Below are positions 42,190 through 56,790 of a DNA stretch of 64,000 bases, in pieces (the stretch's first letter is position 1; each line of letters begins with the position of its first letter). The notes below the pieces were generated by a model. The model was not told the origin of the DNA, did no database searches, and worked only from the letters and a program-made list of their open reading frames with translations. The translations under genes were made by a program, and so were the position numbers. The stretch is from an uncultured Pelagibacteraceae bacterium (GTDB lineage Bacteria > Pseudomonadota > Alphaproteobacteria > Pelagibacterales > Pelagibacteraceae), in assembly GCA_902608385.1 (NCBI GenBank), contig CACLNT010000004.1, positions 31,165 to 95,164 on the forward strand, given 5' to 3'.

Positions 42190-43381
42190 TTATTTTATCG
42201 GAATTTTTTTCTTTGGATCATAAAAAGGCATTGGAACTACTTTTGCCTTAAGATCAGCATATGGTGATCTAATTGTGAATTGAGTTCCTTCTTTTGCATA
42301 TCCTACTGGTATAAATGCATAACCTATATTTTTTTCAAGTCTTGGAGAAAAACATTTTGATGTTACATAGCCAATTTCTTCTTTGTCATCAAACACAGGC
42401 CAATGATCGGGTACAAAATAACCAGGCGTATATTCTGGTGGAACAACTTTGCTAATAGGGTCTCCAAGAATTTCTATTCCAACTAATTTTCTTTTTTATT
42501 CCTTCTTTTTTAATTTTTATAAGCGCTTCTTTCCCCACAAAATCTGCTTCCATTTCAAGATCAACTAATCTATCCATTCCAATTTCAAAAGGATTATCAG
42601 TTACTCTCATATCTTGGAAATAAGAAAAAATTCCCGCTTCAACTCTTCTTATTTGAGAAGGACCAGTTGGTGCAATTTTATGTTTTTCACCAGCGGCCAT
42701 TATCATTTCATAAAGTTCAGCACCTTTTTTTCCATCACGTAGATAAACTTCATAACCAATTTCACCGCTCCAACCTGTTCTAGAAATTACTACAGGAATA
42801 CCTTTGATTTCAGTTTGTTTACACCAGTAATATTTTAAATCATTAATCCATGATCCAAACAACTCAGTCATCAATGCTCTTGATTTTGGACCTTGCACTT
42901 GCAAAGGAGAAACATCTGGTTCTTTTAGTTCGATATCATATTTTCCTTTGCCAGCTACTCCCATAGCCCAAAGCAAAAGATCACTATCAGATATTGAGTA
43001 CCACCAATGATCTTTGCCAATTCTTAACAAAATAGGATCGCTAAGAATTCCACCTTCATAGTTCGTATTTAAAACATATTTACATTGATCAACTTGGCAG
43101 TCAGATAAATTTCTTGGTGTTAATAGTTGGGTAAATTTGGTTGCATCTGGACCTGTAATTTCAACTTGTCTTTCAACTGAAACATCCCAAAGAGTAACAT
43201 CGTTAACTAAACTCCAAAAATCATCCTCAGGTGTATTATAATAAACTGGGAAATACATATGATTGTAAGTAGTATATTCCTTACAGCCCCATTTTAATGT
43301 TGATTCAAAGAAAGGAGATTTTCTAATTCTAGTACCGAATCCCAGATAAGGTTTTGGTGGAGCATTACTTCTTGTTGTCAT
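42190..43381 (-). CDS. DmdA-like GcvT-family methyltransferase, interrupted by a frameshift
   Basis: The first frame encodes 309 residues starting MTTRSNAPPKPYLGFGTRIR. It carries DmdA-family blocks such as 'TTYNHMYFPVYY', 'TLWDVSVERQVEITGPDA' and 'GWSGEIGYEVYLRDG'. It then runs into a short wrong tail (ISWNRNSWRPY). Dropping one A from the run at 42492-42497 restores 'KLVGIEILGDPISKVVPPEY' and joins the downstream frame to make 396 residues. Family members demethylate DMSP or act on N-methyl compounds with THF. I cannot tell DMSP from an amine substrate, and it sits beside dimethylglycine dehydrogenase. Confidence 0.82.
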
Positions 43382-43439: not shown

Positions 43440-45870
43440 TTATGATCTCAACAGCTTGTTTTCAGGATCATAAGCAGGAACGTTTAAAATTTTTGCTTCT
43501 CTTTTTTGACCTTGGATTTCGACAAATAGTTCAGTTCCTTCTTTAGCTAACTTTGATTTAACATAAGCAAAAGCTAAACTTTTTTTTCACTCTAAATCCG
43601 TAGGCTCCAGAAGTAACCACGCCAACTATTTTATTTTCGTGGTAAACAGGCTCATTCCCTCTTGCATCCGCATCATCAACATCTATCTCAAGATAAACTA
43701 TTTTAATATCAACTCCAGATTGAAGCTTATCTCTAAGAGCTTCAGATCCAATGAAATTACTTTTTTTATTTAAATTAAAAAAACGATCCATGCCTGCTTC
43801 AACCAAGCTAATTTCACCTGTTAATTCAGCACCCCAACCTCGATAAGCTTTTTCTATTCTGAGAGAATTAACAGCATATGTACCAAAATTATTTATTTTT
43901 TCTTTTTTTCCAACCTCATAAATGGCGTCATACAAAGACTCCATTTGTTTCATAGGATGATGTAATTCCCATCCTAATTCTCCCATGTAGTTAATTCTAA
44001 GAGCTCTTACGGGCACTTTGTTTATTTCTATTTCTTTCCCTTTTAGCCATGGAAAATCTTTATTATCTAAACTTTCTGATGTTAATTGAGATAAAACTTT
44101 TCTAGAATTTGGTCCCACCAAAACAAGTACCCCATAATCTTCTGTTATGTTTTTTATTTCAACTTTTTCATTTTTACTGACATTGTGATTAAACCAGTCT
44201 AAATCTCTTATTTCTGATGCAGTAGATGATAGAACATAAAATTTATTATTTGCTAATCGTGTTATGGTAAGTTCACTTTGAATTCTACCTATTTTATTAA
44301 GCGTATGAGCAAGTATAATATTACCTTCTTTTTTTGGAATTGAATTTGCACATAAACGATTTAAGTATGCTTCGCTATCTTCTCCCTCAATTTCATATTT
44401 TGCAAAAGTACTTAAGTCTAAAATGCCAACATTGTTTTGAACGTTTTCACATTCCTTTTGTATATAAGGAAAAGCATTTGATCTTTTAAAACTATATTCT
44501 TCTTTCATTTCAGGTTTTGCAAACCACGCTGGTTTTTCCCAACCATAAGAGTCTAAATATACAGCTCCCATGTCTTTTAATTTTTTATATATAGGGGTAG
44601 TTTTTATTGGTCTACCAACGTCTATACTTTCATTTGGCATTGGAGTTACATACATTCTTGTGTATTGATCGATAGATTTATCAACTGCATACTTTTTATT
44701 TACCCAACTCATGTATCTTCTAGGTTCAAACTCAAGCATATTTATTTCTGAGTCGCCGTGGACAATCCATTGAGCCAAATATTTTCCAACTCCTCCACCT
44801 TGAGCAATTCCAACGCTTGCGGCACACGCCATCCAAAAATTTTTTAATCCAGGTGCAGGACCAGCAAAAAAATTATCATCAGGAGTATGTGTAATGGGTC
44901 CACAAATAATTTTTTTTATTCCAACATCTTTAAACTGAGGAATTCTGTTCATTCCTATTTCAAGATGTTTTTCAATTCTATCAAGTTCAGGTTCTAATAG
45001 TTCCATATCAAACTTCCAATCCATTCCACCTAAAGCCCAAGCTTTTGCATCTTTTTCGTATGGACCAATTAATAAACCTTTGCCTTCTTGTCTTAAATAA
45101 GCTGAAGCTTCAGGATCTCTTGTTACGGGTAATTCTTTTTTTAGTTTTTCTATTTCAGGATGTGACTCAGTGACTAAATAATGATGTATCATATTAATGC
45201 TAGGTACTTGTTTTAATCCAACCATTGCACCAACTTCAGGACAAAAACTTCCTGCAGCATTAACAACATGCTCACAAATTATGTCTCCATTTTCTGTAAA
45301 AACTTTCCACTCTCCAGATGGAAGTTGCTTTATATCTTTTACTCTATTTTTTCTGTAAATTTTTGCGCCACCATTTCTAGCTCCTTTTGCCATAGCGTTT
45401 GTAGTGCTTGTAGGATCTGTATGTCCATCTTCAAGAGTATGAAAGGCTGCAAGTATTCCATCTAATCGAATAAAAGGATGAACGTTTTTTATTTCATTTG
45501 GGGTAATTATTTCAGCAGGGGAACCAACATTGTCCATTATTCCCTTAACGTAATGAAACCAATCAATATCTTCTTTTTTATAAGCTAATCTTAAACTGCC
45601 ACATTCATGAAAACCTGTTGCCTGTCCTGTTTCTTTTTCTAATTGTTTATAGAGATTAGTAGAATGCAGATGAACTTTAGCTAAATTATAACTCCCAACC
45701 ATGTGCGGGCATTGTCCAGCTGCATGCCAAGTAGAGCCAGATGTAAGTTCTCCTTTTTCAATTAAAACTAGGTCTTTCCAACCTTCTTTAGTAAGGTGAT
45801 ACAATAAACTTACCCCCAAGATTCCTCCACCAACTATTACTAATTTGGCATGTGACTGAATTTTTTCCAT
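43440..45870 (-). CDS. Dimethylglycine dehydrogenase-type flavoprotein with GcvT domain, frameshifted near the end
   Basis: The N-half is a DAO-type FAD domain (GGGILGVSLLYHL) with the covalent-FAD motif 'SGSTWHAAGQCPHM'. The C-half is a GcvT/THF domain. It removes a methyl from dimethylglycine (or sarcosine) as methylene-THF. The track frame stops at 43558 after 'FRVKKKFSFCLC'. Removing one A from the A8 run at 43580-43587 gives 'VKKSLAFAYVKSKLAKEGTE' and continues to a stop at 43440, for 809 residues, the family length. The catalytic parts are unaffected. Upstream, 92 bases separate it from the divergent IMPase gene. Confidence 0.87.
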
Positions 45871-50263: not shown

Positions 50264-51178
50264 TTAATCTATTGGATAATTCCAAGCATCACCTCCAATA
50301 ATTTTTGATATTGCTGAGAAATCTTTAGCACCATTACCTTCTTCACAAAATTTATTATAAATTTCTAAAGCCATAGTACCAAGAGGAGTGGAAGCTTTAA
50401 CTTGTTTTGCGCACTCATTAGCTAACTTTAAATCTTTATTCATCATACCTGCAGAAAATCCTGCTCGATAACTATTATTAGATGGAGTGCCTTCAATTAA
50501 ACCAGGTAAAGGTGGATAGACAGATATAGGCCAACTATTACCAGATGCATTTTTCATTATTTCGTGAACTTTTTTAATATCGATATTTAATCTTTTTGCT
50601 AACATTAAAGATTCAGAGGCTGCAATCATTGTAATGCCTAAAGACATATTATTACAAATTTTTGCTCCATTGCCACTTCCAAGCTCTCCAGCATGAAAAA
50701 TATTTTTTCCCATAATTTTTAATAAAGGTAGCGCAAGATTAAAAGCTTCTTTCGTTCCACCTGCCATAATATTTAAATTTGCTTTTTGCGCACCCATGAC
50801 ACCACCACTTACTGGGGCATCAATCATTTTAATTCCTTTTTCTGTAGCTTTTTTTCCTATTTCAATTGAAGTTTGAATATCAATTGTAGAGCAATCAATA
50901 AGAAGGCAATTTTTTGATACTTTATTAATTATGCCTTTGTCTCCTAAATAAACTTCTTTTGAGTTTTTACCTTCAGGCAACATTGTTATTACAGTAGTTA
51001 CTTCTTTTGTAATTAAAGCATCTAAGTTTTTTACAACATCAAGTTTTTTTTCTTCTGCTTTTTTGACCATTTTTTTTGAAACATCAAAAACTTTGACTTT
51101 TTTTCCTGCTTTCATTAAATTTTCGGCCATTGGACTTCCCATATTACCAACGCCAATGAACGCTACTTGTTCAGTCAT
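50264..51178 (-). CDS. 3-hydroxyisobutyrate dehydrogenase family protein
   Basis: A 304-residue beta-hydroxyacid dehydrogenase. The NAD(P) motif is 'FIGVGNMGSPMAENLMKAGK', the substrate loop is 'DAPVSGGVMGAQKANL' and the catalytic Lys is in 'GSGNGAKICNNMSL'. Substrates in this family include 3-hydroxyisobutyrate, tartronate semialdehyde and 3-hydroxypropionate. It is the last gene of the minus-strand run of small proteins, 21 bases after an SMR gene, and has a good ribosome-binding site (AAGGAG). Confidence 0.87.
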   Translation of the reverse strand: MTEQVAFIGVGNMGSPMAENLMKAGKKVKVFDVSKKMVKKAEEKKLDVVKNLDALITKEVTTVITMLPEGKNSKEVYLGDKGIINKVSKNCLLIDCSTIDIQTSIEIGKKATEKGIKMIDAPVSGGVMGAQKANLNIMAGGTKEAFNLALPLLKIMGKNIFHAGELGSGNGAKICNNMSLGITMIAASESLMLAKRLNIDIKKVHEIMKNASGNSWPISVYPPLPGLIEGTPSNNSYRAGFSAGMMNKDLKLANECAKQVKASTPLGTMALEIYNKFCEEGNGAKDFSAISKIIGGDAWNYPID

Positions 51179-51199
51179 ATTTCTCTCCTTTTGTTAAAT

Positions 51200-51535
51200 T
51201 TAATTTACTTTACCTAGTAAATTTACAATTAAGACCCCAGCTATAATTAAAGTAATTCCAATCAAACCATACAGATTGGGCATTTGGTTATATTTAATAA
51301 TTCCAAATATTAGTATTGATGCAACTGTAACTGCGCTGTAAGTGGCATAAGCAAAACCAACTGGTATTGCTGACATTCCTTTTGCAAGTGAAAACATAGT
51401 TACACACATTAAAAGTAAACAAGCAATGCTTGGTGCTAATTTTGAAAATCCTTCAGACATTTTTGCAAGACTATTTGCAATTATTCCACATGATATAGCA
51501 ACAAATAAAAAAATATACCCAGTGAGTGGTTTCAT
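51200..51535 (-). CDS. SMR-type small membrane transporter, second of a tandem pair
   Basis: A 111-residue four-helix protein aligning with EmrE/QacE. 'KMSEGFSKLAPS', 'PVGFAYATYSAVTV' and the terminal 'GVLIVNLLGK' match family blocks. By hand alignment the helix-1 glutamate (EmrE Glu14) is replaced by Gly ('AISCGIIANSLAKM'), and the helix-3 tryptophan (Trp63) by Tyr. Without the glutamate the usual proton/substrate exchange should not work. It starts one base after its paralogue ends and probably forms a heterodimer with it. Confidence 0.8.
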   Translation of the reverse strand: MKPLTGYIFLFVAISCGIIANSLAKMSEGFSKLAPSIACLLLMCVTMFSLAKGMSAIPVGFAYATYSAVTVASILIFGIIKYNQMPNLYGLIGITLIIAGVLIVNLLGKVN

Positions 51536-51536
51536 A

Positions 51537-51872
51537 TTAGCTAGTTTTTCCTAACAAGTTTACAATTAAGACACCAGCTATAATTAGCGCGAGTCCTATT
51601 ATTGTATAAAGATCAGGCATTTGTTTGAACTTATACATACCAACAATTGTGGTTGCCACAATACATAATCCTGCAAAAGAAGCGTAAGTTATTCCTACAG
51701 GAATTGTTTTCATGACGAGCGATAAGGTAAACATGCATCCAACAATGGTTATAGCTGTAATAATACTTGGTATTAATAATGTAAAACCTTGAGCACCTTT
51801 AGCAAAACCATTTGATGCAGTTCCTAATACAACTGCAATAATTAAAATTATGTAAGCTGTGATATTACCCAT
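51537..51872 (-). CDS. SMR-type small membrane transporter, first of a tandem pair
   Basis: A 111-residue four-helix paralogue of the next gene. Shared ends ('DLYTIIGLALIIAGVLIVNLLGK') show that the pair arose by duplication. The helix-1 position equivalent to EmrE Glu14 is again Gly ('VVLGTASNGFAKG'), and the Trp63 position is Phe (TYASFAGLC). Both members share the loss, so it is not a one-off mutation. Encoded six bases after a VOC-family gene within the small-protein operon. Confidence 0.8.
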   Translation of the reverse strand: MGNITAYIILIIAVVLGTASNGFAKGAQGFTLLIPSIITAITIVGCMFTLSLVMKTIPVGITYASFAGLCIVATTIVGMYKFKQMPDLYTIIGLALIIAGVLIVNLLGKTS

Positions 51873-51878
51873 TATTTT

Positions 51879-52268
51879 TCATTTACCTACTAAACATCTA
51901 GCTGTGATTTTATTTCCATCTAAATCACGAACATACCCATAATAATTTCCATCAGATCTTGGTCCTGGGTCACCTTCATTAACAGCTCCATTTTCTAGTG
52001 CAGTTGCATGAAATTTGTCGACAGCCTCTTTTGTTTTAGCTGATAGAGCAACCATTGTACCGTTGCCTACAGTAGCAGTTTCTTTATTATGAGGTTTTGT
52101 AATATAAAATTTAACTCCATCATCTTCACTTGAATGACCGTAACCGATATATCTTTCTGTAACAGTAACTCTTTTCATTCCAAGATGAGCCAAGACGGCA
52201 TCGTAAAACTTGCTTGATTTTTCAAGTTCATTAGTCCCTACCATAACAAAACCAATTACTTTATTCAT
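51879..52268 (-). CDS. VOC (glyoxalase/bleomycin resistance) family protein
   Basis: A 129-residue protein with the VOC fold pattern: 'VIGFVMVGTNELEKSSKFYD', 'GNGTMVALSAKTKEAVDKFH' and the C-terminal 'YVRDLDGNKITARCL'. Likely metal-dependent isomerase, dioxygenase or binding role. It overlaps the preceding SnoaL-like gene by one base (stop-start), so translation is coupled. Confidence 0.84.
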   Translation of the reverse strand: MNKVIGFVMVGTNELEKSSKFYDAVLAHLGMKRVTVTERYIGYGHSSEDDGVKFYITKPHNKETATVGNGTMVALSAKTKEAVDKFHATALENGAVNEGDPGPRSDGNYYGYVRDLDGNKITARCLVGK

Positions 52269-52588
52269 TACTTAGGCAACTTTGTTGCTCCAGTTTCCAT
52301 ATAAGCAACTTTTCCATCTTTAAATTTGTAATAAGTCATAACAGCCTCTTTATTACCATCGTTATAGGTCACATAAGCATGTTCAAATCCAACTTCATCA
52401 TTTTCAAAAAGAACTCTAACCTTTTCTTTTTTGACATCTTTCATACCTAGCCATTTTAAAATATCTTGTTTGCCTAATATATTTCCAGATGAATGCATTA
52501 AAAATTGATAATCGTCATGTATCATTTCTTCACCAGCAGCTACATCTCCTTCGTTTACTATTTTTGTCATTTTTTCAATTATTGACAT
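52268..52588 (-). CDS. SnoaL-like (NTF2 fold) protein, copy 2
   Basis: A 106-residue NTF2-like protein ('VNEGDVAAGEEMIHDDYQFL', 'ENDEVGFEHAYVTYNDGNKE', ending 'METGATKLPK'). It is a paralogue of the preceding gene: both share 'ENDE-G--H', 'DG---AV---Y--KDGK' and 'ETGAT'. SnoaL-like proteins act as cyclases, isomerases or binding subunits. No Asp/His pair of polyketide cyclases can be assigned with confidence. Confidence 0.8.
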   Translation of the reverse strand: MSIIEKMTKIVNEGDVAAGEEMIHDDYQFLMHSSGNILGKQDILKWLGMKDVKKEKVRVLFENDEVGFEHAYVTYNDGNKEAVMTYYKFKDGKVAYMETGATKLPK

Positions 52589-52602
52589 ATTTTATCCTTT
52601 CT

Positions 52603-52929
52603 TTATTTTTTTGTTATATTCGTAGCGCCCGTTTCAGATCGAATTATTTTGCCATCCTTTATATTATAGACTGCAAGGACTGCTTGTCTTGAACCATCTG
52701 TAAAAGAAACAAAAAAATGAGCCACTCCTATTTCGTCATTTTCATAGATGATACGAGAATTTTCTGTTTTTGGAGCATCAGGACTAATTAGCCATTTGCT
52801 TAATTCATCTCTTGGAATTTCTTCTCCGGTTGAGTGTTTTACCCAAACATAATCTTCGCTGACTACTTCGTTGTATGCTTGTATGTCTTGATTATTTTGA
52901 GCATCGAAAAGTTTTTGTATAACAGACAT
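52603..52929 (-). CDS. SnoaL-like (NTF2 fold) protein, copy 1
   Basis: A 108-residue NTF2-like protein ('AQNNQDIQAYNEVVSEDYVW', 'YENDEIGVAHFFVSFTDGSR', ending 'SETGATNITKK'). It is the first of a tandem pair with the following gene, 14 bases apart. The copies have diverged considerably, so the duplication is not recent and may reflect a heterodimer or divided substrate range. Confidence 0.8.
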   Translation of the reverse strand: MSVIQKLFDAQNNQDIQAYNEVVSEDYVWVKHSTGEEIPRDELSKWLISPDAPKTENSRIIYENDEIGVAHFFVSFTDGSRQAVLAVYNIKDGKIIRSETGATNITKK

Positions 52930-52933
52930 ATTT

Positions 52934-53227
52934 TTATGCTCCTTTTACTATTATAAAATTTCCAACAGAATTATCTAAACGTATTTGTCTTACTGGTTTA
53001 TATTCTTCAGAGCTATACCATTCCAAAGCTTTTTCGTAAGAAGGGAATTTAATAACCACTGTTCTAGGATATTTCCATTCTCCTTCGAAGCACTGATACT
53101 CTCCACCTCTTACTAAATATTCTCCACCAAATTTAGTAACAATGTCAGTAACTTTTGCTAAATATTCCTTATAGTCCTCTGGATTTGTTACCTCAATTTG
53201 AGTTATGGCGTATCCTGTCATTTTCAT
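52934..53227 (-). CDS. DUF1330 family protein
   Basis: A 97-residue dimeric ferredoxin-like barrel protein. DUF1330 features are 'GYAITQIEVTNPEDYKEYLAK', 'GGEYLVRGGEYQCFEGEW' and 'TVVIKFPSYEKALEWYSSEEYKPV'. Function of the family is unknown; a Glu and an Arg in these blocks are usually conserved. It lies four bases before the first SnoaL-like gene. Confidence 0.87.
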   Translation of the reverse strand: MKMTGYAITQIEVTNPEDYKEYLAKVTDIVTKFGGEYLVRGGEYQCFEGEWKYPRTVVIKFPSYEKALEWYSSEEYKPVRQIRLDNSVGNFIIVKGA

Positions 53228-53233
53228 TAATCC

Positions 53234-53530
53234 TTAAAGATTAACTTTGCTCATTTCCCACATTTGAACGCTTTCGATACATTCATCGAAAATAGGTTTT
53301 GCAATTGGGTTTTGACCAGTAACAAATTGCTTCATATTTTCTTCATTATGAACTGAGACTTTAAACATAACATAACTTTTGTCTGGTGCTACTGCTGGAA
53401 CTGTTTTTTCAACATGAGCAATAGTTTTTCTTACTCCCATTCCTTCATCTGATTGCATAAATCCCATGAATTTTTCAAATTTTCCTTCACCAGATTTAAA
53501 TTTTGCTATTGCAAGCATTTCTTTTTCCAT
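53234..53530 (-). CDS. Small alpha/beta-barrel-like protein of unknown function
   Basis: A 98-residue protein ('MLAIAKFKSGEGKFEKFMGF', 'VMFKVSVHNEENMKQFVTGQ'). The beta-alpha-beta pattern resembles antibiotic-biosynthesis-monooxygenase-type or other dimeric alpha/beta barrels, but I do not recognise the family. It is the first gene of the minus-strand small-protein run and is two bases upstream-adjacent to the epimerase gene end. Translation should start at the first ATG; M1 and M5 are both possible. Confidence 0.65.
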   Translation of the reverse strand: MEKEMLAIAKFKSGEGKFEKFMGFMQSDEGMGVRKTIAHVEKTVPAVAPDKSYVMFKVSVHNEENMKQFVTGQNPIAKPIFDECIESVQMWEMSKVNL

Positions 53531-53532
53531 AA

Positions 53533-54405
53533 TTAATCCTTTCCTTTAAATGTATTAATATATTCTTTTAAACTTTCTTTTCCAAAATATTTATGAATTT
53601 TTTTTGATAAATTCATATTTGTTAAAGCTGAAGCATATCTCTCGCCAGGTCTTTTTGGTAATAATTTAATCTTACTACTGAACATTTTTGCAACTTGAAG
53701 TATAGAATACCTATTTTTATGAGAAATACTGTGATGTCTGCACTTATTCTTTTTCCATGACAAGTAACATACTTTAACCGTATCATCTATATGAGTAAAT
53801 CTTCTTGTTTGATTTCCTGGTCTTACAACTGGCATAGGTTTTTTATTTTTATAACATTTTTCAAAAATTCCTATTACTGTCGCCATTGATCCTTTTGATA
53901 TTTGATTAGGTCCATATACATTGTAAAAGTAGACCACTTCGTATTTAAAGTTAAACCATTTTTTTAAATTTTCTAGTAACTCTAAATTTTTCGCCTTAGT
54001 AAATGCATAAGGTGAAAGATTTTTATCATCCCCTTTATTTCCTAAGGAAGCTGAAGTTGCAGAATAGATAAGTTTTATTTTATTTTTTAAACAATAACTA
54101 AATACAGCATTAGTTCCTATAGAATTTGAATTAATACACTCGTTCATTTTTAAAAAACTTTGATAAATTCTTGCAAATTCACCAAAATGAAACAATGAAT
54201 GAATTTTTTTTGGATTTTTTAAAACTGAAGAAATATTTTTTGTATCAGATTTTATGTATTTAACTCTACTACTTTTGATATGATTTTTTTTACTTCCAGA
54301 ACTATAATTATCGATTGATATAATTTTTTTGTTTGTTTTTTTTAATAATAATTTTATTAAATTTGAACCAACAAAACCAGCACCTCCAGTTATAACAATG
54401 TACAT
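53533..54405 (-). CDS. NAD-dependent sugar epimerase/dehydratase (UDP-glucose 4-epimerase-like)
   Basis: A 290-residue extended short-chain dehydrogenase. The NAD motif is 'VITGGAGFVGSNLIKLL', the catalytic pair is in 'SPYAFTKAKNLEL' (YxxxK) and 'VVYFYNVYGPNQISKGS' and 'RPGNQTRRFTHIDD' are typical of GalE-like enzymes. The track frame starts at a TTG overlapping cysK; I use the ATG seven codons later (MYIVITGG). Role: nucleotide-sugar conversion for surface polysaccharide. Placement after cysteine genes is unexpected. Confidence 0.85.
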   Translation of the reverse strand: MYIVITGGAGFVGSNLIKLLLKKTNKKIISIDNYSSGSKKNHIKSSRVKYIKSDTKNISSVLKNPKKIHSLFHFGEFARIYQSFLKMNECINSNSIGTNAVFSYCLKNKIKLIYSATSASLGNKGDDKNLSPYAFTKAKNLELLENLKKWFNFKYEVVYFYNVYGPNQISKGSMATVIGIFEKCYKNKKPMPVVRPGNQTRRFTHIDDTVKVCYLSWKKNKCRHHSISHKNRYSILQVAKMFSSKIKLLPKRPGERYASALTNMNLSKKIHKYFGKESLKEYINTFKGKD

Positions 54406-54422
54406 ATTATTATTTGTTTTTA

Positions 54423-55424
54423 TCAAATCCAGTTTGGAAAAGGTAATCCTTTTTCTTGAAGAAATGATTTATTAAACAACTTACTATTGTATCTATCAGA
54501 TTTGTCACAAAGAATTGTAACAATTGTATGACCAGGTCCAAGTTCTTTTCCTAATCTTATAGCTCCTGCGATATTAATTCCACAACTTGTACCTAAGCTT
54601 AAACCTTCATTTTGAATTAAATCATATATAATTGGCAAAGATTCTTTGTCATCTATTGAAAAAGCTCCATCAATTTTTGCAGTTGCAAAATTTTTAGTAA
54701 TTCTGCTAGATCCAATTCCTTCAGTGATTGATCCACCCTCACTTTTTAATTCTCCATTAACAATATAATTGTATAAAGCTGACCCTTTAGGATCAGATAA
54801 ATAAATTTTAATATCTTTATTTTTTTCTTTCAAAGCATTACTGACGCCAGCTATTGTTCCTCCTGTACCAGATGAACAAACAAATCCATCAACTTTGCCA
54901 TCTGTTTGGCTCCATATTTCAGGTCCAGTATTTTCGTAATGACCTTTAGAATTTGCAACATTGTCAAATTGATTTGCCCAAACTACACCATTATTATTAT
55001 TTGGTTTTAATTCTTCTGAGAGCCTTCCAGCAACTTTAACAAAATTAGCATCATCTTTATAGGGTTTTGGTGGTACCAATCTAAGTTCCGCACCAATATT
55101 TCTTAAAGTATCTTTTTTTTCTTGAGTTTGATTATCATTCATTACTATTATTGTTTTATAACCTAGGGAATTTCCTAAGAGGCAAAGTCCTATTCCAGTG
55201 TTTCCAGCTGTTCCTTCAACAATAGTTCCACCTTTTGAAATAAGTTTTTTTTCTTCCGCATCTTTAATTAATGCCAATGCTGCTCGATCTTTTACAGATC
55301 CACCTGGATTTAAATATTCAGCTTTACCGTAAACATTACAACCAGTTATCTCTGAAGCTGCTTTGAGTTTTATTAACGGAGTGTTGCCAATACCTTGAAT
55401 AAAACTATTTTGTAAATTTTTCAT
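54423..55424 (-). CDS. cysK: Cysteine synthase (O-acetylserine sulfhydrylase)-like PLP enzyme
   Basis: A 333-residue fold-type II PLP enzyme. The PLP lysine is in 'NPGGSVKDRAALALIKDAE', the substrate loop is 'EGTAGNTGIGL' and the phosphate-binding part is 'SSGTGGTIAGVSNALKE'. It makes cysteine from O-acetylserine and sulfide. The loop residues differ slightly from canonical CysK, so a cystathionine beta-synthase-like or CysM-like activity is possible. Directly downstream of cysE, which supplies O-acetylserine. Confidence 0.87.
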   Translation of the reverse strand: MKNLQNSFIQGIGNTPLIKLKAASEITGCNVYGKAEYLNPGGSVKDRAALALIKDAEEKKLISKGGTIVEGTAGNTGIGLCLLGNSLGYKTIIVMNDNQTQEKKDTLRNIGAELRLVPPKPYKDDANFVKVAGRLSEELKPNNNNGVVWANQFDNVANSKGHYENTGPEIWSQTDGKVDGFVCSSGTGGTIAGVSNALKEKNKDIKIYLSDPKGSALYNYIVNGELKSEGGSITEGIGSSRITKNFATAKIDGAFSIDDKESLPIIYDLIQNEGLSLGTSCGINIAGAIRLGKELGPGHTIVTILCDKSDRYNSKLFNKSFLQEKGLPFPNWI

Positions 55425-55429
55425 TTTTA

Positions 55430-55996
55430 TTAATCACTACTAGAAGCGATACCGTATGGCTTAAATTCTTCTGTGGTAGTTCCAACATTTTTAGCAGGTA
55501 TGCCAACCATTACTGCATTTTCAGGAACATCTTTAGTAACAACTGCATTTGCTCCTATCTTTGCATTTTTACCAACTACAATGGGACCTAGTACTTGAGC
55601 ACCAGAACCAACCACAACATTATCTTTTAATGTTGGATGTCTTTTAACATTTCTTTGATTGTCAGAATCAATGCTTGGAGAAATACCACCTAATGTGACC
55701 ATATGATAAATAGTTACATTATCACAAATTTCAGAAGTTTCTCCAATAACAACTCCCATGCCATGATCAATAAATAAATTTTTTCCAATTTTTGCTTTAG
55801 GATGTATTTCTATTCCCGTCAAAAATCTTGAAAACTGAGATATAATTCTTGCAATAAGATCAAACTTTGCAACACAAAAAAAATTTGCAATTTGGTGAAA
55901 AAAAACTGCTTTAACACCTGGGTAAGTCAAAATTACACTTAATTTTGACTTTGCTGCAGGATCACGATCAATAATTGACTGTAAAAAATCATTCAT
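55430..55996 (-). CDS. cysE: Serine O-acetyltransferase
   Basis: A 188-residue hexapeptide-repeat acyltransferase. It has the short N-terminus of EpsC-type enzymes, catalytic '[14 protein letters not shown]' (Asp/His) and 'HMVTLGG' (His), then left-handed beta-helix repeats ('[20 protein letters not shown]'). It makes O-acetylserine for the adjacent cysK. The C-terminus 'IASSSD' ends without the Ile that binds CysK in some species. Confidence 0.9.
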
Positions 55997-56035
55997 TATG
56001 AAGTTTTATATAAGTATTATTTTTAAAATTAAAAG

Positions 56036-56737
56036 CTAGTTTGAACTAAGCTGATCTAAAGTAAACCCTTTTTTATTAGCTGGTACCGCTATATCAATCA
56101 TTTCAGGGTTCTCTAAATTTAAATTATCCATTATTTTAACATATTCTTCAGGAGAACTGACTTGAAGTCTTGGGTTATTGTTTTTTTCATTTTCAATAGT
56201 TGAATATTTTTTGCCGTTATAATCATGAGCAGGATAAACTAAAGTTTTTTCAGGCAATTTTAATAATTTATTGAAAAGAGAGTCGTATGCATCATAAGAA
56301 TTTCCGTTTTGGAGGTCTGTCCTACCTGTTCCATTAATAAGCAAAGTGTCACCAGTAAAAACTCTGTCGTTCATTAAAAAACTATAAGAACAATCAGTAT
56401 GACCAGGTGTGTATAATGAAATTAGTTCTATATTTTCAATTTTAATTTTTTCATTATCTTTCACCCAAATATCAATAACCTCGGAAGAAGAATGTTCGCC
56501 CATAATTTTTGAACACTTTGTTCTTTTGCTAAGTTCATTCAAACCTGAAACATGATCTGCATGAATATGTGTATCTATTACTTTAACTAGTTTTAAATCC
56601 AAAATTTTTAAAACATTTGTATATTCTTCAGTATTTTCAATGACTGGGTCAATGATTAAAGCTTCCCTACCTTTGCCACTAGAGACAATGTAAGTGTAGG
56701 TTGAAGATTTTTTATCAAATAATTGTTTAAATATCAT
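56036..56737 (-). CDS. ETHE1-type persulfide dioxygenase (metallo-beta-lactamase fold)
   Basis: A 233-residue mononuclear-iron MBL protein. The metal motif is 'DTHIHADHVSGLNEL', then 'YTPGHTDCSYSF' and 'FTGDTLLINGTGRTDLQNG', the ETHE1 hallmark. It oxidises glutathione persulfide to sulfite. The track start is ten codons upstream; MIFKQLFDKKSSTYTY matches family starts. Together with cysK, cysE and the glutathione genes it suggests handling of sulfide or persulfide. Confidence 0.87.
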   Translation of the reverse strand: MIFKQLFDKKSSTYTYIVSSGKGREALIIDPVIENTEEYTNVLKILDLKLVKVIDTHIHADHVSGLNELSKRTKCSKIMGEHSSSEVIDIWVKDNEKIKIENIELISLYTPGHTDCSYSFLMNDRVFTGDTLLINGTGRTDLQNGNSYDAYDSLFNKLLKLPEKTLVYPAHDYNGKKYSTIENEKNNNPRLQVSSPEEYVKIMDNLNLENPEMIDIAVPANKKGFTLDQLSSN

Positions 56738-56761
56738 AGACAATTTGGACACTATAAAAAA

Positions 56762-56790
56762 TTGCATAGCAAATCAATCTTGCTTATAAT
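56762..56790 (+). promoter_or_regulatory. Strong candidate promoter for the peroxiredoxin gene
   Basis: TTGCAT and a perfect TATAAT are separated by 17 bases, 32 bases upstream of the peroxiredoxin ATG. An AGAGAGGA ribosome-binding site precedes the start. It overlaps the upstream end of the divergent persulfide dioxygenase gene. Confidence 0.65.

Follow-up and report, generated by a model that had tools for sequence, protein, structure and literature searches.

Do seven tiny genes that nearly touch one another in a SAR11 genome form one pathway, or are they one state of a variable locus? The genes lie on the minus strand at positions 51200-53530 of the window, by which we mean the whole stretch of 64,000 nucleotides analyzed here, taken from a Pelagibacteraceae genome assembly of 1.18 Mb that is 85% complete. 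Their open reading frames (ORFs) encode proteins of 97-129 amino acids: a barrel-like protein (BARR), a DUF1330 protein, two SnoaL-like proteins (SNLa and SNLb, of the family called SNL below), a VOC protein and two SMR-type proteins (SMRa and SMRb). The original prediction took them for a single undescribed pathway that makes or breaks a small reactive compound, with the SMR pair as its transporter. Comparison with relatives leads to a different answer, and in its architectural part, including the exchange of genes, we are highly confident: the seven genes would be one state of a flexible genomic island that SAR11 carries between cysE-cysK and an SMR pair lacking Glu14.

The run itself is as compact as had been described, with intergenic distances of 1, 6, -1, 14, 4 and 6 nucleotides from SMRb to BARR, and next to it is the hydroxyacid dehydrogenase that had been named (350 bits, against an NCBIfam cut-off of 291.6 for 3-hydroxyisobutyrate dehydrogenase; HIBADH). 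The seven genes stand, but the operon-like run is longer than had been assumed. It is part of a directon of 12 genes (50264-56767) whose gaps do not exceed 39 nucleotides: an MBL hydrolase, cysE, cysK, an SDR epimerase, the seven small genes and the HIBADH-type dehydrogenase. The gaps upstream of BARR, through the SDR gene, cysK, cysE and the MBL hydrolase, are 2, -4, 5 and 39 nucleotides; with the first two of these, joint transcription with cysE-cysK is likely in this genome, though not in relatives generally.

A variable slot between cysK and the SMR genes

Neighborhoods were examined in a sample of 197 genomes of the order, of which 87 contain BARR and 97 contain SNL. Loci were compared over at most 20 kb around these genes in some 100 genomes, with 80 named loci in addition; their ORFs were called mechanically and labelled by profiles built in this analysis, and many of the assemblies are single-cell or metagenome drafts. 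BARR and SNL are encoded no more than 3 kb apart (median 987 nucleotides) in 79 of the 79 SAR11 genomes that hold both, and SNL and a strong SMRa match are equally close in 77 of 77, counts that describe a conserved neighborhood and not a probability because related genomes are not independent. The original view that the grouping of these genes is no accident is borne out. The fraction of SAR11 genomes with the slot is biased upward because genomes were chosen by their SNL, BARR or SMR matches.

Loci of the genus begin with cysE and cysK, continue with a set of small genes, SNL and one of DsbA18, tpr63, tm62 or DUF2798, and reach one or two SMR genes, after which come IMPase, DUF924 or DUF952. 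The equivalent place thus carries differing content in relatives: 91 slots bounded by cysK and SMR show 75 gene orders and 74 gene sets, with a median of 8 genes per slot, counted from cysK to the first SMR gene. Slot ORFs are short (median 106 amino acids, whereas the remaining ORFs of these loci have 235), 669 of 718 are on the strand of cysK, with the membrane gene tm9 making up about half of the exceptions, and the gaps between small genes have a median of 10 nucleotides and are 50 or less in 97% of cases. Among 125 slots SNL is present in 118 and DsbA18 in 44, mostly directly after SNL; between cysK and the first SMR gene, VOC occurs in only 9, SDR in 3 and HIBADH in 2. The families found as cargo include DUF1330, DUF3764, SnoaL_2, cupin, DSBA and DUF2798, together with weak matches to GYD, ABM and SCO4226-like families; several others have no Pfam match, including p5 (124 amino acids, a signal-like N-terminus), which is in most slots. 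Fold classes and recurrent families are what versions of the island are seen to share. The near relatives L198-L203 do retain BARR, DUF1330, SNL, VOC and SMR, most of them with HIBADH, and the seven-gene composition is specific to a small subclade. One pathway of this fixed composition, as originally proposed, does not fit 74 gene sets in 91 slots.

Two of the families without a Pfam match, p5 (e.g. L089:11773-12147) and aoc25 (e.g. L070:9061-9537), are widespread and small and have signal-like N-termini; by eye only, the GGTGKYANISGTG stretch of aoc25 resembles dirigent/allene-oxide-cyclase-like barrels. In some SAR11 genomes we also observed a lone SNL gene without small-protein neighbors at another conserved place (L239-L246 and L102).

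Gene content was mapped on a cysE+cysK tree of the 125 slots by counting changes in gene presence. SNL changes 4 times, compared with 27 changes for aoc25, 21 each for BARR and cup40, 19 for DUF1330, 17 for bar14 and 12 for GYD; therefore SNL is near-constant while the other small genes rotate. Small-gene sets differ in 13 of 32 pairs of loci with near-identical cysK, as in L140 and L161, where one has bar14 and cup40 and the other bar42 and cup59. The opposite discordance is seen in L222 and L225, whose SNL genes are 97% identical at third positions and whose cysK genes are 54% identical.

Homologous exchange between diverged lineages is also visible in the genome studied here. Relative to L198 and L199, synonymous divergence (dS) is 0.04-0.06 for BARR, 0.13-0.20 for DUF1330, 0.08-0.24 for SNLb and 0.14-0.17 for VOC, whereas it reaches 0.9-1.1 for SMRa, 0.53-0.70 for cysK, 0.46-0.73 for cysE and 0.45-0.50 for HIBADH. 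SNLa has a counterpart in L200 and L202 and none in L198 or L199. Judged from this contrast in dS, the BARR-DUF1330-SNL-VOC block was recently exchanged by recombination inside older flanks. Orthologous cassette genes have ratios of nonsynonymous to synonymous divergence (dN/dS) mostly of 0.01-0.27 and are therefore under purifying selection.

The same families cluster away from cysE-cysK and the SMR genes. In alphaproteobacterial genomes that we infer to be of the HIMB59 type, BARR and SNL occur together, accompanied by cup40 in most cases and by bar19 in one (L118, L121, L123, L262, L271, L274), at another chromosomal place that has neither cysE-cysK nor SMR. In a second SAR11 genus p5, DUF1330, BARR, bar14, tm9, ABM and GYD are clustered apart from cysE-cysK, SNL and SMR, and in other alphaproteobacteria SNL relatives adjoin relatives of bar42, DUF1330 or GYD (L120, L126, L129).

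Loci in which the cassette begins directly after cysK carry a conserved leader, CGCATANC(A/T)G-N3-TGTAAY-N6-RTTACA followed by a T-rich stretch (CGCATANCWG-N3-TGTAAY-N6-RTTACA), found in 78 loci with 59 distinct cores. The leader stretch is about 40-112 nucleotides long and is present irrespective of which gene the cassette opens with (e.g. L071, L083, L234); it is absent from the subclade of this genome and from the clade that has tm9 against cysK. Its hairpin pairing is above that of slid controls, the percentage paired is not above column shuffles, and covariation is weak; it may be a promoter, an operator or a weak terminator. A genome-wide search in 12 genomes gave no second recurrent noncoding copy and no second regulon target, the only other recurrent match being CACATAAA(A/T)G..TTGTAATAAAA, antisense inside a sarcosine oxidase alpha-type gene.

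Genes of the directon in the window (nucleotide positions in the window)
Feature	Position	Strand	Basis or remark
BARR, predicted dimeric alpha+beta barrel protein, 98 aa	53234..53530	-	no Pfam family; AlphaFold and Foldseek
DUF1330 protein, dimeric barrel, 97 aa	52934..53227	-	Pfam; solved relatives 2fiu, 3lo3
SNLa, divergent second SnoaL-like (NTF2-fold) copy, 108 aa	52603..52929	-	Pfam SnoaL_2; common to near relatives L200, L202
SNLb, SnoaL-like (predicted NTF2 fold), near-constant core gene of slot, 106 aa	52268..52588	-	AlphaFold and Foldseek; slot counts
VOC (glyoxalase-fold) protein, subclade-specific, 129 aa	51879..52268	-	Pfam; closest solved chain 4qb5
SMRa, SMR-type protein, Gly for Glu14, Asn at position 18, 111 aa	51537..51872	-	Pfam PF00893
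SMRb, second Glu14-less SMR protein, 111 aa	51200..51535	-	Pfam PF00893
3-hydroxyisobutyrate dehydrogenase-type enzyme (HIBADH), subclade-specific; upstream of BARR in some relatives	50264..51178	-	NCBIfam
SDR-type NAD-dependent epimerase/dehydratase, an insertion between cysK and BARR seen in this subclade	53533..54426	-	
cysK (cysteine synthase A), bordering the slot on the left	54423..55424	-	
cysE, serine O-acetyltransferase	55430..55996	-	
MBL-fold hydrolase at the head of the directon, resembling GloB / persulfide dioxygenase with scores below cut-offs	56036..56767	-	

No tRNA genes are present in the window, and a search for riboswitches or known RNAs gave no Rfam matches between 40 and 64 kb. 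Elsewhere in the same genome there is a second DUF1330 gene (G000:C12:26912-27193, 97 bits). At 43558-45870 the window contains a dimethylglycine dehydrogenase-like ORF with a C-terminus that seems cut short, which adjoins a second GcvT/DmdA-like ORF at 42452-43381.

Predicted folds and the Glu14-less SMR pair

The folds proposed from the sequence are upheld. BARR has no Pfam or NCBIfam match; its AlphaFold model (a monomer, built with 13 relatives) is ferredoxin-like with a predicted local distance difference test (pLDDT) score of 95, and Foldseek relates it to the dimeric barrels 2bbe, YgiN, SnoaB, OAC and LsrG, in agreement with the barrel-like fold that had been guessed. BARR is thus predicted to have the ABM-type ferredoxin-like barrel fold, in common with a superfamily of dimeric alpha+beta barrels (ABM proteins such as YgiN, SnoaB, OAC and LsrG; DUF1330; GYD; DUF3764) to which Pfam assigns several cargo families; unlike these it belongs to no Pfam or NCBIfam family, and its identity to the solved matches listed is 18% or less. 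In a class-wide sample it was found in SAR11 and HIMB59-type genomes only. The DUF1330 protein scores 113.6 bits against a gathering threshold of 23, and the VOC protein matches Glyoxalase (PF00903) with 36.9 bits.

SNLa matches SnoaL_2 above the cut-off of 27 (29.7 bits) and SNLb falls just under it (25.8 bits). The AlphaFold model of SNLb (pLDDT 95) is NTF2-like and Foldseek places it near CatM (E 1.6e-6), ketosteroid isomerase and epoxide hydrolase, so that the predicted fold supports membership in the NTF2-like group. In this it resembles the small SnoaL/NTF2-like enzymes (CatM, ketosteroid isomerase, limonene epoxide hydrolase), but SNL has an invariant residue set of its own (H32, R58, E62, N63, H70, E98 and T99), and no polyketide or steroid genes were seen beside the slot. 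Searched by sequence against solved structures, neither SNL nor BARR gave a significant match.

Both internal paralogue pairs reported originally were recovered, at 40% amino acid identity for the SnoaL-like pair and 45% for the SMR pair. The duplications are therefore old and not recent; recent tandem duplication is ruled out by these identities, and SNLa also stands apart from SNLb in the tree.

Both SMR proteins match PF00893 clearly (65.6 and 55.3 bits, cut-off 23.7). With their length of 111 amino acids, their membrane character and their tandem arrangement they resemble EmrE and the paired SMR subclass. In EmrE, Glu14 is the catalytic residue of proton-coupled cation export, and it is regarded as indispensable to transport by the SMR family. 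As had been noticed for this pair, that residue is missing: the position of EmrE Glu14 is Gly, and position 18 is Asn, in all 224 SMR copies with a recognizable motif (of 226), and helix 1 of the SAR11 copies contains no acidic residue. The best-matching SMR proteins from other alphaproteobacteria have Glu at position 14. Orthologous SMR copies have dN/dS of 0.01-0.08. Bay and Turner described loss of Glu14 in the divergent YvaD (PMC2716321), which is poorly conserved, whereas the SAR11 copies are conserved. With Gly at position 14 and an acid-free helix 1, proton-coupled cation export of the EmrE type is unlikely. The substrate may instead be uncharged or anionic, or the pair may act like a flippase.

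The role of the SMR pair as transport partner of the small proteins is not upheld. SMR genes keep their position without SNL in L130, L135 and L136, SMR occurs alone in another family of the same order, and SNL-BARR clusters of the HIMB59 type are found without SMR; therefore the pair is a border or neighbor of the slot. As an observation in its own right, the conserved Glu14-less subfamily (Gly14, Asn18) extends throughout SAR11 (L063-L277), often in tandem, and may transport its substrates without recourse to the canonical glutamate. One HIMB59-type genome (L286, G530:C1:344922-345248) has a SAR11-like SMR gene with an internal stop codon, away from its SNL-BARR cluster.

Weighing the explanations

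The island that we propose has close parallels. Like replacement flexible genomic islands (PMC4033161) and the hypervariable regions HVR1-4 of SAR11 (PMC2217521), the slot has a fixed position, lineage-specific content and homologous block exchange with a contrast in dS, and would need no integrase. It differs in being a few kb long and not tens of kb, and in cargo: surface-glycan or transport genes there, mostly barrel, NTF2 and cupin proteins of 95-160 amino acids here. The HVR1-4 gene lists contain secretion, transport, surface and unknown genes (PMC2217521) and do not include the slot content, a comparison by gene lists in which overlap with an unnamed listed gene is possible. The architecture of the slot fits a compact variant of the replacement flexible genomic island. 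Integron gene-cassette arrays are likewise variable strings of small genes in one direction, but the slot has gaps of about 10 nucleotides, no integrase was seen, and no attC-like repeats were found, the only 14-mers shared within the window being due to SMR homology and one in the SDR coding sequence. There is no recurrent recombinase-sized ORF among the slot genes, although the slot ORFs of relatives were not scanned singly for recombinases. In agreement with the original remark that no described system with this makeup was known, we found no published description of the locus in the open-access literature, subscription papers being outside the search.

The best explanation in our judgment is a flexible genomic island with a swappable kit of small proteins for small reactive molecules, a reading that we regard as evenly poised between right and wrong. 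The island is a single-strand run of small single-domain proteins, in which a near-constant NTF2-fold (SnoaL-like) gene is accompanied by rotating partners: dimeric alpha+beta barrels (among them BARR, DUF1330, GYD and DUF3764), cupins, VOC, a further NTF2 family, small secreted proteins and a protein resembling DsbA/HCCA isomerases. Homologous recombination in the conserved flanks very probably adds, removes and exchanges genes or blocks, as is demonstrated for this genome. The chemistry is more tentative, and we consider it possible at best that the proteins handle small molecules as the predicted folds suggest. They could be cofactor-light enzymes or binders that accept, isomerize, oxidize or detoxify small reactive organic compounds, with oxygenation, isomerization and epoxide, quinone or aldehyde handling as candidate activities; the makeup of the kit may be tuned to local conditions through the swapping of members. 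Handling of existing reactive compounds seems likelier than biosynthesis because nothing that would build a scaffold, be it a ligase, a synthase or a carrier protein, is present. All versions of the kit would have the NTF2 protein in common, and the neighboring SMR pair may move an uncharged or anionic compound.

Several points weigh against this explanation. Neighbors of a predicted fold do not fix function. The histidine of OAC-type barrels is catalytic, and BARR has no invariant His of this kind, its invariant charged residues being Lys, Arg and Asp. The dS values come from about 100 codons per gene and are noisy, although four adjoining genes and two relatives are concordant. Roughly a third of slots have tm9 directly against cysK, and in these the cassette begins about 570-610 nucleotides beyond cysK; therefore co-transcription of the cassette with cysE-cysK is not obligatory.

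Among other explanations, the stretch after cysK might simply be a tolerant insertion site that gathers unrelated small genes with no shared function. Such a sink, which we find rather unlikely, would agree with the high turnover on the cysE+cysK tree, with the many unnamed cargo families and with the membrane and secreted proteins of differing kinds among them; it sits badly with cargo that is confined to a few small folds on nearly always one strand and is under purifying selection, with a nearly constant SNL, and with the clustering of the same families elsewhere in another genus and in HIMB59-type genomes. Those same clusters, having no cysE-cysK, speak against thiol-linked detoxification, in which cysE-cysK would provide cysteine to small proteins that conjugate or quench electrophiles. 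The directon unbroken with cysE-cysK in this genome, the DsbA18 gene usually right after SNL (the DSBA type includes HCCA isomerases), the GloB/persulfide-dioxygenase-like MBL gene upstream and a peroxiredoxin and an AhpD-like protein near would all suit it, yet in many cases the cassette is preceded by a leader of its own or separated by tm9. Also against it, cysK and cysE were not induced in HTCC1062 under sulfur limitation (PMC5069961), in a passage that does not deal with the cassette. We regard this explanation as quite unlikely.

A fixed pathway around one compound, made or broken by the seven proteins and exported by the SMR pair, draws on the tight gaps and on the shared composition of L198-L203; since the composition differs in nearly every other relative, SMR and SNL are each found without the other, and the SMR proteins lack Glu14, we judge it improbable. 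An anti-phage defense island would account for hypervariable single-strand content at a fixed locus, but PADLOC gave no matches for the seven proteins, no SNL relative was found in viral contigs and the fold types are metabolic, which makes it exceedingly improbable. A viral origin of the genes was likewise rejected, there being no SNL relative in viral contigs and a PHROGs match for SMR only.

A more specific form of the swappable-kit explanation, which we put forward as speculation and think doubtful, is a combinatorial system: a constant NTF2-fold protein would team up with barrel, cupin and NTF2 partners that can replace one another, every partner being specific to a different natural compound, swapping of partners at the level of populations would let a streamlined genome track the local supply of compounds, and the adjacent SMR pair would transport the products without Glu14 coupling.

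SAR11 cells are among the most abundant in the ocean and have one of the most streamlined genomes. In spite of this streamlining, most sampled genomes of the genus retain a hypervariable string of small-protein genes at a fixed place. Its neighborhood yields testable predictions, namely SNL as the common partner, BARR-SNL as a unit and exchange by recombination, and it draws attention to a conserved SMR subfamily without the residue held essential for transport. If the cargo tracks environmental compounds, the content of the slot could serve as a genetic readout of detoxification or diet in SAR11.

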